Source of the DNA: CBDUXZ01 sp965371325 [NCBI: uncultured bacterium]
Lineage (GTDB): Bacteria; JAUYMQ01
DNA: 9,066 nt
Assembly (NCBI GenBank): GCA_965371325.1
Contig: CBDUXZ010000050.1
Span: 1-9,066 of the forward strand
Direction of reading: 5' to 3'
In this document: positions 1,397 through 8,967 of the stretch, one piece after another
How positions within the stretch are numbered: position 1 is the first letter of the stretch
Layout: every line of letters starts with the position of its first letter
Translations under genes and position numbers: made by a program
The notes under the pieces: generated by a model
Databases searched by the model: none
The model's input: the letters and a program-made list of their open reading frames with translations, nothing else
What the model was told of the DNA's origin: nothing

Positions 1397-1402
1397 ATGA
1401 CC

Positions 1403-1648
1403 ATGGCCTCCGGCGACACCGCGGGGCAGCCGGCCTTGAAAATCACCGTCAACGGCGAGACGATGGAGGTTCGGGGGGTGAGGACGGTTGCCGATCTTCT
1501 GAGATCGCTCAAAATGGATCCGGAAGGCGGCGGCCCCCGCGTCGCGGTCGCGGTGAACCTCGAGGTCATCTCCAAAGCGAAGCGGCCGGGGCAAATTCTC
1601 AAGCCGGGCGACCAGGTGGAGATCATTCACGCCGTCGGAGGCGGCTGA
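1403..1648 (+). CDS. thiS: Sulfur carrier protein ThiS
   Basis: Small ubiquitin-like (beta-grasp) sulfur carrier. Its C-terminal glycine is adenylated and converted to a thiocarboxylate that donates sulfur to ThiG for thiazole formation. The product is about 81 residues. The core reads KITVNGETMEV, then VADLLRSLKM, VAVAVNLEVI and KPGDQVEIIHAVGGG at the C-terminus; the terminal Gly-Gly required for activation is present. ThiS proteins are usually about 65-70 residues and begin at the KITVNGE strand, so the first ~11 residues here are extra. An in-frame TTG at 1436 would give exactly the canonical start with a loosely placed GGGG upstream and is a real alternative; ATG at 1397 is a third. It is followed by thiG, its partner. 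The adenylyltransferase ThiF and sulfur-transfer genes are not in the window. Confidence 0.9.
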   Translation: MASGDTAGQPALKITVNGETMEVRGVRTVADLLRSLKMDPEGGGPRVAVAVNLEVISKAKRPGQILKPGDQVEIIHAVGGG

Positions 1649-2526: not shown

Positions 2527-3165
2527 ATGAGCGGCGTTTATCTCATCACGGATCGCCGCCGGAGCCGGGGGCGGACGGTCGAGGAGGTCGTTCGGGCCGC
2601 GGTGGCGGGAGGCGTCAGGTGGATCCAGATCCGCGAGAAGGATCTTCCCACACGCACCCTCACCGCGCTGGTCCGGAACGCTCTTGCGCGCGCGGGACCA
2701 GCACGGGTTTTCGTGAACGATCGGGTGGATGTGGCGCTTGCCACGGGATGCCACGGCGTTCACCTGGGTGCTTCGACCCTGCCCGTTGCGGAAGTGAAAC
2801 GCATGGCGCCGTCGCTTAACGTCGGTTACTCGGCCCACGCCCTTGACGAGGCGCTGGCGGCCGAAGGGGACGGCGCCGGCTACGTGACCTTCAGCCCGAT
2901 CTACCCGACGCGCTCGAAGGGCGCCATGACCGGTGCGCCCCAGGGCGTCGGGATGCTCGCAAAGGTTTGCAGCGCGCTGGAGATTCCCGTTTACGCCCTG
3001 GGCGGCATCACGCCTTCACGCGTCGGGGAAGCGCTGGCGGCCGGGGCTGCCGGCGTGGCCGTCGTTTCCGCCATCACGGAGGCGGCGGATGTGGAGAAGG
3101 CCTCCCGCGACCTTGTTGAGCGGTTCAACCTCTTCCAGGCGGAGCGACAGGAGCGGACACCATGA
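2527..3165 (+). CDS. thiE: ThiE/TenI-family protein (thiamine phosphate synthase or thiazole tautomerase)
   Basis: TIM-barrel protein of 212 residues, a normal ThiE length. ThiE joins HMP diphosphate to thiazole phosphate to give thiamine phosphate; the related TenI aromatises the ThiG product. Seen here are VYLITD (4-9), WIQIREKD with Gln34, Arg36 and Lys38, VFVNDRVDVAL with Asn64 and Asp65, GYSAH with Ser102 and His104, YPTRSKG with Lys131 and a phosphate-binding ALGGITP. These match the Bacillus subtilis ThiE diphosphate ligands. One key position differs: where ThiE has GQED with the second Mg2+-binding aspartate (Asp112), this protein reads GAST, giving Thr84 and no glutamine. It may therefore be a TenI-like tautomerase, a Mg-site variant or a degenerate synthase. 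The start lies 8 bases after the thiG stop with GGAG abutting the ATG, suggesting translational coupling. The stop overlaps the next gene. Confidence 0.85.
   Translation: MSGVYLITDRRRSRGRTVEEVVRAAVAGGVRWIQIREKDLPTRTLTALVRNALARAGPARVFVNDRVDVALATGCHGVHLGASTLPVAEVKRMAPSLNVGYSAHALDEALAAEGDGAGYVTFSPIYPTRSKGAMTGAPQGVGMLAKVCSALEIPVYALGGITPSRVGEALAAGAAGVAVVSAITEAADVEKASRDLVERFNLFQAERQERTP
3150..3153 (+). promoter_or_regulatory. Ribosome binding site of the cofH-like gene, inside the thiE end
   Basis: GGAG lies 8 bases before the ATG at 3162, within the last codons of the upstream gene. With the ATGA start/stop overlap (3162-3165) it fixes the start and indicates coupled translation. Confidence 0.6.
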
Positions 3166-4439
3166 ACGGACCCACGCAGGCTGCGCGCCTTCATCACCCG
3201 GACATCCGGGAGGCGCGATTTCTCTCCGTTCTCAATCCCGATGTCGCCCGCATTCTGGGCGACTCCCTCGCGGGCCGCGAGATTTCGGAAGACGATGCCA
3301 CGATCCTTTTCGACGCGGAGGGGGCCGAGCTGGCCGCGGTCCTCGCGGTCGCCGATCATTTCCGCCGCGAGGCGAATGGCGATCTCGTCACCTTCGTGGT
3401 CAACCGCAACATCAATTTCACGAATCGCTGTTTCGTCGGATGCAAGTTCTGCAACTTCAAGGTCCGCAGCGACGGCCCTGACGCCTACTTCCAGGATCTC
3501 GAAGAGGTCGCGGACCGGGCCGACGAGGCCGTGGAGCGCGGCGCGACGGAAGTCTGCATCCAGGCCGGCCTTAACAAGGACCTGCCCGGCAGCCATTACG
3601 AAGCCGTTCTCCGCGCCATCAAGGCCCGCCATCCAGATCTCCACATCCATTCGTATTCGCCCATGGAAATTCACTACGGCGCGAAGCGCACGGGACGGAC
3701 CGTTCGCGAGCAGCTCCAGGCGCTCCGGGAAGCCGGCCTCGACACCATTCCGGGAACGGCCGCGGAGATTCTCGTTGACCACGTGCGAAAGCGCATGTCG
3801 CCCTACAAGCTGACCGTTTCGGACTGGGTGGATGTCATCACCACGGCGCACAATCTCGGCATCCCCACCACCTCGACGATCATGTTCGGCCATATCGAAG
3901 AGCGGCGCGACTGGTCGCGCCATCTTTCCGTGCTCCGGAACATCCAGCGCAAGACGGGCGGCTTTACCGAGTTCGTCCCCCTGGCCTTCGTGCACACCCT
4001 GACGCCGCTTTATCTCGCCGGCGGCTGCCGACCGGGGCCAACGAAGGAGGAGAAGCTCAAGATGTACGCGGTGAGCCGGATCTTCCTCAGGGGATGGATC
4101 GACAACATCCAGGTCTCCTGGCCCAAGCTGGGGCCGGCCATGGCACAGATGTGCCTCGACGCGGGTGCCAACGATTTCGGCGGCACGCTCATGGAGGAGT
4201 CGATCTCGAGGATGGCCGGCGCCGTGCACGGAGAGTACGTCAGCCCGGACGCCTTCAAGCAGATGACCCATATGATGGGACGCACGCCTGCACAGCGCAG
4301 CACCCTGTACAGGATCCTTCGGTTCTTCCCGCGGCCGGGCCACCCCGCGGTGGAGCCGGACGCGCTTAAAATTCCCTCGACAGCCGGCGCGCCGGCCATC
4401 GAAGAGAGCACCATGCTCGCCGAGAACGCCTGCGCATAG
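3162..4439 (+). CDS. cofH: CofH-family radical SAM enzyme (FO synthase subunit 2-like) in the ThiH position
   Basis: Radical SAM protein of 425 residues. The CX3CX2C cluster motif is NRCFVGCKFCNF (Cys90, Cys94, Cys97). The downstream signature is that of CofH and the C-terminal half of FbiC: HSYSPMEIHYG (163-173), AGLDTIPGTAAEIL (191-204), TTAHNLGIPTTSTIMFGHIE (227-246), TGGFTEFVPLAFVH (265-278), GANDFGGTLMEESISRMAGA (335-354). CofH couples tyrosine to 5-amino-6-ribitylaminouracil to form the F420 precursor FO, releasing 2-iminoacetate. It is not ThiH by motif. The residue after the third cysteine is Asn where most CofH have Ala. No cofG or other F420 gene is in the window. It overlaps thiE by 4 bases, in the place where thiH often stands in thi operons. 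That position suggests, but does not prove, a role in supplying ThiG. The family is certain; the role in this operon is open. Confidence 0.9.
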   Translation: MNGPTQAARLHHPDIREARFLSVLNPDVARILGDSLAGREISEDDATILFDAEGAELAAVLAVADHFRREANGDLVTFVVNRNINFTNRCFVGCKFCNFKVRSDGPDAYFQDLEEVADRADEAVERGATEVCIQAGLNKDLPGSHYEAVLRAIKARHPDLHIHSYSPMEIHYGAKRTGRTVREQLQALREAGLDTIPGTAAEILVDHVRKRMSPYKLTVSDWVDVITTAHNLGIPTTSTIMFGHIEERRDWSRHLSVLRNIQRKTGGFTEFVPLAFVHTLTPLYLAGGCRPGPTKEEKLKMYAVSRIFLRGWIDNIQVSWPKLGPAMAQMCLDAGANDFGGTLMEESISRMAGAVHGEYVSPDAFKQMTHMMGRTPAQRSTLYRILRFFPRPGHPAVEPDALKIPSTAGAPAIEESTMLAENACA

Positions 4440-4521: not shown

Positions 4522-6177
4522 ATGATGATCGGACAAGGTGGGCAACTCATCGCACGGCAGCTGAAGAAGGAGGGCGTGGACACCATTTTCACGCTCTGCG
4601 GCGGGCACGTGTTCGCGATTTACGATGGATGCATCGACGAAGGCATCCGGGTCATCGACGTTCGCCACGAGCAGGCGGCTGCCCATGCAGCGGACGCCTG
4701 GGGACGAATCACGGGAACTCCCGGCGTGGCGGTCGTTACCGCAGGCCCCGGCGTGACAGACGCGGTGACGGGCGTAGCCAACGCCTGGCGGGCATCCTCT
4801 CCGATGATCTGCATCGGCGGCCAGGGCCCCTTCTCGATGTTCAAGAAGGGAGCGCTCCAGGAGATGGATCACGTCGCGCTCATGGCTCCGATTACGAAGT
4901 GGTCGGACAGGTGCTTCGAGACGAGGCGCCTTCCGGAGTATGTGGCGATGGCGTTTCGCCATGCGGTCTCCGGAAGGCCGGGACCGGCCTTCCTCGAGAT
5001 TCCGCTCGACGTGATGATCAACGCCATGGACATCAATGAGGTCGAGTTCCCGACGCACTCCTACAGCCGGGCCAAGTCGTATGGAGATCCGGAGTACGTG
5101 GAACTTGCAGTAAAGGTTCTTCAGACCGCACAGAAGCCTGTGGTGATGGCGGGCTCATCCGTCTGGCTCTCCCGTGCCCAGGACGTGCTGAGGCGTTTCA
5201 TCGAGGAGGCGGACATCCCCGTCTACCTAAACGGCATGGGGCGGGGCTGCATGCCTCCGGATCATCCGAATTTCTTCCGCCACACACGCGGCTTCGCGCT
5301 CGATCAGTGCGACGTGGCCGTCGTTCTGGGCACGCCCCTCGACTTCAGGCTCGGCTACGGAAAGTCGATTCCGGAAAGCGCGAAGATCATCCAGATCGAC
5401 ATCGACCCGCTGGATATCGGCGTGAACCGAGGAGCGGACGTCGGAATCTCAGGCCACGTGGGCGCGATCCTCGATCAGATCGTGAAGGCCCTGCCCGAGA
5501 TCGCCGGGCCGCGAGATGAGCGGCTGCACACGGAGTGGATCGAGGAGCTCCGGAACATGGAGAACAAATCGCTCGAGCGTCTCGCGCCGCAGCTCATCTC
5601 CGATCTGAAACCCATCCATCCGAACCGCTTCAGCGCGGAGCTCAAGAAATTCGTCGACAGGAACACCATCGTCGTCGGGGACGGCGGCGACATCGTGGCC
5701 ATCGCCTCGAAGGTGCTGGACGTAGACCTTCCTGGAAACTGGATGGATCCGGGGCCCCTGGGGTGCCTGGGCGTGGGGATGCCCTTCGCCATCGCGGCGA
5801 AGCTCGCGCGCCCTGAAAAGCGCGTCATGGTGCTGTTCGGGGACGGCTCCTTCGGCCTCACCGGCTTCGAGTTCGACACAGCCATCCGTTTCAAGCTCCC
5901 CATCATCGCTATCGTGGGCAACGACTCAGCCTGGGGCCAGATGCGAAAGCCCCAGCTAGCGACCTACGGTGAAGAGCGGGCCATCGCCACGGCCCTCGCC
6001 CCCACGCGCTACGACAAGGTCGTGGAGGCCCTCGGCGGCCACGGAGAGCTGGTCACCGATCCGGAAGAGATAGTCCCCGCGCTCGAGCGCGCGGAAGCAT
6101 CGGGCAAACCGGCCTGCGTGAATGTCATGATCCATCCCAATCCGCAGGATCTCATGAGAAACCCTCCGAAGTACTGA
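4522..6177 (+). CDS. Thiamine-diphosphate-dependent enzyme, acetolactate synthase / 2-hydroxyacyl-CoA lyase superfamily
   Basis: Cytoplasmic ThDP enzyme of 551 residues with the three expected domains. The N-terminal pyrimidine-binding domain carries the activating glutamate in DVRHEQAAAHAADAWGR (Glu50) and VVTAGPGVTDAVTG. The central domain carries VLGTPLDFRLGYG (268-280), where acetolactate synthases have a RFDDR-type segment; this version is closer to the oxalyl-CoA decarboxylase/2-hydroxyacyl-CoA lyase side. The C-terminal domain has the diphosphate and metal motif GDGSFGLTGFEFD (440 onward) ending in VGNDSAWGQ (Asn467). No acetolactate synthase small subunit follows. The substrate cannot be fixed from sequence. 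GGAGG at 4516-4520 sits 1 base before ATG 4522 and 4 bases before ATG 4525, so the second Met may be the real start. It lies 82 bases after the cofH-like gene with no clear terminator, so it is likely co-transcribed with genes making its cofactor. Confidence 0.88.
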   Translation: MMIGQGGQLIARQLKKEGVDTIFTLCGGHVFAIYDGCIDEGIRVIDVRHEQAAAHAADAWGRITGTPGVAVVTAGPGVTDAVTGVANAWRASSPMICIGGQGPFSMFKKGALQEMDHVALMAPITKWSDRCFETRRLPEYVAMAFRHAVSGRPGPAFLEIPLDVMINAMDINEVEFPTHSYSRAKSYGDPEYVELAVKVLQTAQKPVVMAGSSVWLSRAQDVLRRFIEEADIPVYLNGMGRGCMPPDHPNFFRHTRGFALDQCDVAVVLGTPLDFRLGYGKSIPESAKIIQIDIDPLDIGVNRGADVGISGHVGAILDQIVKALPEIAGPRDERLHTEWIEELRNMENKSLERLAPQLISDLKPIHPNRFSAELKKFVDRNTIVVGDGGDIVAIASKVLDVDLPGNWMDPGPLGCLGVGMPFAIAAKLARPEKRVMVLFGDGSFGLTGFEFDTAIRFKLPIIAIVGNDSAWGQMRKPQLATYGEERAIATALAPTRYDKVVEALGGHGELVTDPEEIVPALERAEASGKPACVNVMIHPNPQDLMRNPPKY

Positions 6178-8891: not shown

Positions 8892-8967
8892 GCCGAGGTA
8901 GCTCAGCTGGTAGAGCAGCTGATTCGTAATCAGCAGGTCGGCGGTTCGAGTCCGCCCGTCGGCTCCA
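8892..8967 (+). tRNA. tRNA-Thr (anticodon CGT), CCA encoded
   Basis: Full cloverleaf of 76 bases: acceptor GCCGAGG, D-arm GCTC/GAGC, anticodon stem GCTGA/TCAGC with loop TTCGTAA (anticodon CGT at 8925-8927), five-base variable loop, T-arm GGCGG/CCGCC with loop TTCGAGT, 3' acceptor strand CGTCGGC, discriminator T and encoded CCA. It reads ACG threonine codons. Six of the seven acceptor pairs form; position 6 is a G-G mismatch with position 67. The other arms are perfect, so the gene is most likely functional. Confidence 0.95.

Follow-up and report, generated by a model that had tools for sequence, protein, structure and literature searches.

Why would a gene for a CofH-type enzyme, which splits tyrosine in F420 synthesis, stand in an operon for the thiazole of thiamine, and what does its product do there? 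Two routes to the 2-iminoacetate used by the thiazole synthase ThiG are generally described, ThiH and ThiO. The window, the whole 9,066-nucleotide stretch of DNA that was analyzed, carries a cofH in this setting, and the features that bear on the question are listed in Table 1.

Table 1. Features of the thi-cofH locus, with positions in the window.
Feature	Positions	Strand	Evidence
thiS, sulfur carrier protein, 83 aa, C-terminal GGG	1397..1648	+	TIGR01683 66.7 bits, cut-off 37.45
thiG, thiazole synthase, 258 aa	1742..2518	+	PF05690 365 bits, cut-off 23
thiE, thiamine phosphate synthase, 212 aa	2527..3165	+	TIGR00693 161.2 bits, cut-off 145.1
ATGA overlap, stop of thiE and start of cofH	3162..3165	+	sequence
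thi-linked cofH, unfused, 425 aa	3162..4439	+	TIGR03551 492.6 bits, cut-off 374.1; 79% identity to relative L001
Cluster motif CX3CX2C (C90, C94, C97), followed by Asn98 and Phe99	3429..3455	+	sequence and alignment
Asn138-Lys139 of the thi-linked CofH (other CofHs: His or another residue, then an invariant Pro)	3573..3578	+	alignment
Thiamine-diphosphate (TPP) enzyme, 551 aa, 82-base gap after cofH	4522..6177	+	PRK05858 585.7 bits, cut-off 587
tRNA gene, downstream of a DegP/HtrA-type protease gene	8892..8964		Rfam RF00005 66.2 bits

The original prediction, made from the letters of the window, described the order thiS-thiG-thiE-cofH with a four-base ATGA overlap before cofH, CofH signatures with a CX3CX2C motif, and a cluster free of thiH and thiO. 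Our analysis agrees on each point. The four genes form a single run on the plus strand with the four overlap bases common to thiE and cofH, the three cysteines of the motif are in place, and no ThiH or ThiO was among the matches listed from an NCBIfam scan (E 0.001) of eight window proteins. Between positions 1195 and 4650, a promoter scan gave 0 promoter-like sites against 0.3 expected, and a terminator scan gave 3 terminator-like sites against 2.5 expected, with 0 between thiE and cofH.

A scan of a genome collection yielded 17 pattern matches, from which 4 loci were confirmed; as the scan depends on short exact peptides, it would miss distant thi-linked CofHs. One of the four loci, L001, is a close relative (79% identity) and comes from the metagenome-assembled genome (MAG) "Deltaproteobacteria bacterium isolate C24_metabat.bin.90", referred to here as G001. 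The three remaining loci carry fused CofGH genes (46-47% identity). A phylum-level search around G001 found no genome besides G001 itself, a scan of viral_contigs found no relatives, and all 74 records from a plasmid scan were below 60% identity. The single match of a phage scan was an MqnC: Microcystis phage MaAM05 (MW495066.1, 5151-6095) carries a gene with the annotation mqnC (40% identity over 75% of the query), which is an unusual phage cargo. Only two thi-linked CofHs are known, those of the window and L001, both from uncultured bacteria.

The order thiG-thiE-cofH-TPP enzyme is common to both loci, and cofH adjoins thiG and thiE on the same strand in two of two. In L001, the cofH start lies 4 bases past the thiE stop, the start having been chosen to match that of the window. 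Third positions are 49-62% identical between the two sequences, and dN/dS is 0.142/0.917 for cofH, 0.094/1.09 for thiG, and 0.300/0.942 for thiE; the part of the TPP gene that was compared gives 0.076/0.809. Given this divergence and these dN/dS values, many synonymous changes have accumulated while the order stayed intact. The cofH gene is under purifying selection, like its neighbors, and because the order recurs in L001 with such selection on cofH, its linkage to the thi genes is more than chance. The TPP enzyme, of the acetolactate synthase or 2-hydroxyacyl-CoA lyase kind, is the next gene 3' of cofH in the window and in L001 (3168-4196, plus strand); the two copies are 89% identical over 343 residues, and the NCBIfam matches listed for the window copy are the best 25 of 51. 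Neither locus gave a TPP riboswitch at gathering score. We did not find thiS in the 340 bases 5' of thiG in L001. They contain an interspersed repeat, which has matches in 6 of the 49 other contigs fetched as well. The ThiS of G001, 61% identical to that of the window, is encoded close to one end of contig C540, pointing outwards, as would be expected if the assembly had broken between thiS and thiG.

Both thi-linked proteins exceed the curated CofH cut-offs. Against TIGR03551 (374.1 bits) and PRK07360 (426 bits), the window protein scores 492.6 and 458.1 and the L001 protein 475.8 and 451. Pfam assigns the window protein a Radical_SAM and a CofH_C domain only, the latter (PF19288) at 67.6 bits against 27. 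Like CofH and the C-terminal half of FbiC (TIGR03551, FO synthase), the thi-linked protein scores above the cut-off, and its identity to 21 others is about 41 to 50%, but it differs in Pro139, which is Lys, and in lying in a thiazole operon, not beside cofG, cofC, cofD, or cofE. MqnE and MqnC, of the futalosine route to menaquinone, belong to the same radical SAM subfamily. An Mqn-type identity was rejected, as the scores fall below both cut-offs (MqnC 343 versus 428.1; MqnE 298.1 versus 434.55). With ThiH (2-iminoacetate synthase, TIGR02351), the thi-linked CofH shares an operon slot, a proposed role, and a related fold, and both ThiH and CofH cleave the C-alpha to C-beta bond of tyrosine. 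It differs from ThiH in its CofH_C domain, it was not matched by the ThiH model (cut-off 380 bits) at E 0.001, and a Pfam scan found no BATS domain, the C-terminal domain of ThiH, in the window protein. A structure model of the protein, built from 5 sequences, has a mean pLDDT of 74.3 that is low at residues 371-425. Its nearest solved fold is MqnE (6xi9_A; Z score of 38.6, 2.6 Å over 351 residues), followed by HydG and ThiH near Z 28 (ThiH 7pd2_B, Z score of 28.1, 3.3 Å over 321 residues). As for names, one paper gives COG1060 the name ThiH although the COG member in question is FbiC; COG names assigned automatically can therefore mix up these two proteins.

Release of 2-iminoacetate by CofH fits the chemistry. 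Philmus et al. are said to have found in 2015 that the other half of tyrosine in the CofH reaction leaves as 2-iminoacetate. A review describes how CofH takes hydrogen from the tyrosine amine, whereupon tyrosine fragments and the p-hydroxybenzyl radical so formed adds to ribityldiaminouracil (PMC8498797); the words iminoacetate, dehydroglycine, and thiamin are absent from that review. ThiH is described in another paper as breaking tyrosine between C-alpha and C-beta, with dehydroglycine and p-cresol as products (PMC9046217). Among open-licence papers, we found none joining cofH with thiG or 2-iminoacetate. Two papers that mention both CofH and thiamine biosynthesis make no connection between cofH and the thiazole step; one of the two reports cofH-like genes near purine genes in Halobacteria.

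We consider it somewhat probable that the CofH of this locus is functional and that ThiG draws on its co-product, 2-iminoacetate, with CofH replacing ThiH or ThiO. The basis for this reading is the gene order, the family assignment, the linkage in two genomes, the purifying selection, and the contents of G001, where neither ThiH nor ThiO is over its cut-off. A genuine, unfused CofH would be made together with ThiS, ThiG, and ThiE, presumably from one transcript. With SAM, it would split L-tyrosine between C-alpha and C-beta and place the p-hydroxybenzyl part on 5-amino-6-ribitylaminouracil, and the resulting F420 intermediate would be used by a CofG encoded elsewhere. The other half of tyrosine would leave the thi-linked enzyme as 2-iminoacetate, which ThiG may then take for the thiazole, with CofH standing in for ThiH or ThiO.

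The 4.1-Mb genome G001 shows what else is available to such a pathway. It encodes ThiC (702 bits) and one ThiG over the cut-off, the copy adjoining cofH. Profile searches found no ThiH over the cut-off (best 21.2 bits versus 380) and no ThiO (best 68 bits versus 250.8). The one BATS domain match lies within a BioB frame (356.2 bits versus 225), and the best match of the ThiO model passes as L-2-hydroxyglutarate oxidase (366.9 versus 299). For F420, we found a fused CofGH on contig C202 (1145.2 bits versus 1018), an unfused CofG on C467 (426.2 bits versus 213.35), CofD on C599 (305.5 bits versus 257.45), and a CofE fragment covering positions 104-244 at the edge of C566, at 165.6 bits and below the cut-off of 180.65. 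The thi-linked gene in G001 is a second, unfused CofH. Two FO synthase gene sets thus occur in one MAG on separate contigs, a fused CofGH, and an unfused CofG with the thi-linked CofH (C202, C467, and C328, or L027, L026, and L135). G001 has 42 tRNA profile matches and 41 ARAGORN genes covering 18 of 20 isotypes (Phe and Trp unseen), and 4 matches to the class II synthetase domain PF00587; from these counts we estimate roughly 90% completeness. Since the MAG is in short contigs and shows 18 of 20 isotypes, a ThiH or ThiO could have been missed. In composition, the thi contig and the CofG contig are typical of the bin, at the 14th percentile of distance among 76 pieces, while C202 stands at the 80th and Aromatoleum DNA scores at the 83rd, measured from a baseline of 45 contigs with 3 masked ones left in the reference. 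It is possible that C202 is contamination.

The original prediction had named, as counting against it, a ThiH or ThiO elsewhere in the genome, a sole cofH, and a placement unique to one strain. In G001, the only genome where this combination could be tested, we found neither ThiH nor ThiO over the cut-off, a second CofH in the fused CofGH, and the linkage present in two genomes.

Three comparison genomes (G002, G003, and G004), reached via the other confirmed loci, show how the slot beside thiG is otherwise filled. None has a ThiH over the cut-off. ThiO scores in the three are 345.2 and 332.1 bits, over the cut-off, and 230.5 bits, just under it. ThiO (glycine oxidase, TIGR02352) is an FAD enzyme unrelated to CofH that acts on glycine and oxygen. 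G003 has the order thiO-thiS-thiG and then a ThiE-like frame that runs off the end of the fetched stretch, G002 has a ThiO-like gene adjoining thiG and then a cut ThiE-like frame, and in G004 there is no thiG within the stretch fetched around thiO. A ThiO-type gene thus fills in G002 and G003 the slot that cofH fills in the window and G001. Going by these two of three comparison genomes, the thi operon is a usual home of a 2-iminoacetate source. We also inspected 23 plasmid loci fetched for their cofH-like genes, a set that takes in Mqn-type outgroups: thiS, thiG, or thiE occurs in the fetched stretch of 0 of the 23, a further annotated F420-synthesis gene occurs in 13, and 4 stretches are without any annotation. 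At L047 (5001-6077; a plasmid of Streptomyces sp. NBC_01643), a CofH-like stretch with no annotated gene and a broken frame looks like a decayed gene; with its frame broken up, this sequence (StrepNBC01643) was left out of the tree and the residue counts.

The contents of G001 also bear on the strongest alternative, namely that the thi-linked protein is an ordinary F420 enzyme paired with the unfused CofG, that its place among the thi genes reflects chance gene order or shared regulation, and that ThiG is served by an unseen ThiO or ThiH or by some other source. The CofH residues are fully kept, G001 is incomplete, and its unfused CofG, with which the thi-linked CofH could serve F420 alone, speaks against the co-product reading as well as for this one. 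In a CofG tree, that CofG pairs with the unfused CofG of Miltoncostaea (84/82). In a CofH tree of 29 rows, the position of the thi pair among other CofHs has low support (63/78), and placing the pair with four unfused CofHs as one clade is not rejected (p-AU 0.24), in a test from which Miltoncostaea, also unfused, was left out; such a grouping would suit an F420 enzyme. Against it stand the linkage preserved in two genomes, the fused CofGH that G001 already has, the missing ThiH and ThiO over the cut-off in G001, and the plasmid loci, with 0 of 23 showing a thi gene. On balance, we regard this alternative as rather unlikely.

In the same CofH tree, the CofHs of the window and L001 form a clade at 100/100. 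The suggestion that thi-linked CofHs form a clade therefore holds for these sequences, but the clade has two members only. The fused CofGH of G001 groups with Rhodospirillales and Aromatoleum (95/92). Recent duplication of this fused gene as the origin of the thi-linked copy was rejected, with a p-AU of 2.3e-10 for the thi pair and the fused gene as one clade.

The residues themselves bear on a second alternative, that the thi-linked protein is a neofunctionalised CofH acting as a plain tyrosine lyase like ThiH, independent of the diaminouracil. Its coexistence with a fused CofGH in G001 would allow such a change. Of 62 columns invariant in 21 other bacterial CofHs, 61 are retained in both thi-linked proteins; in a leave-one-out control, single canonical CofHs depart at 0 to 8 invariant columns. 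Only at position 139 is such a residue lost, with Lys in place of Pro; in the model this site falls in the loop that follows strand 130-134, and next to it is Asn138, at a position that is His in 17 of the 21 others. The thi pair has 8 residues of its own at near-invariant columns, a mild excess over the 0 to 4 of five other sister pairs. This excess, like the small membership and the silent G004 control, counts against the co-product reading, and together with the Lys at an otherwise invariant column it is what the lyase reading has in its favor. The high retention of invariant columns argues the other way, as do the CofH-specific columns (invariant in the 21 CofHs and absent from 4 Mqn-type sequences), retained at 8 of 8 in both thi-linked proteins. 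As judged from the sequences, there would seem to be little sign of new chemistry, and a neofunctionalised lyase is improbable. The original prediction had the homologue supply ThiG either in this way or by sharing the co-product of F420 synthesis. Its general claim is supported by the two-genome linkage, the contents of G001 without ThiH or ThiO over the cut-off, and the other CofH there, but the lyase version is the less fitting one; sharing of the co-product fits better because all eight CofH-specific residues are retained.

The Asn after the third cysteine, which had been put forward as the mark of a distinct clade, does not serve as one, as the haloarchaeal CofHs of Natrinema and Natronosalvus carry Asn too. 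These haloarchaeal plasmid CofHs (L044, 2279-3634; L045, 2303-3667) stand without a further annotated F420-synthesis gene within 2.5 kb, and they may represent a separate CofH-like subfamily that has another role.

Finally, an artefact of metagenome assembly or binning can be set aside as highly improbable: L001 does come from a MAG whose fused-CofGH contig is not firmly placed in the bin (80th percentile), but the same order stands in two sequences that diverge at about 40 to 50% of third positions, and in composition the thi contig is typical of its bin (14th percentile).

If the co-product of the thi-linked CofH does feed ThiG, the discarded half of CofH's tyrosine would gain a use, and F420 and thiamine synthesis would be linked. 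Genomes that by gene list seem unable to make the thiazole would then be explained. We see about an even chance that this adds a third natural route to the thiazole precursor, in which a CofH recruited to the thi operon replaces both ThiH and ThiO, so that thiamine synthesis would run on the co-product of F420 synthesis and the two pathways would be tied together.
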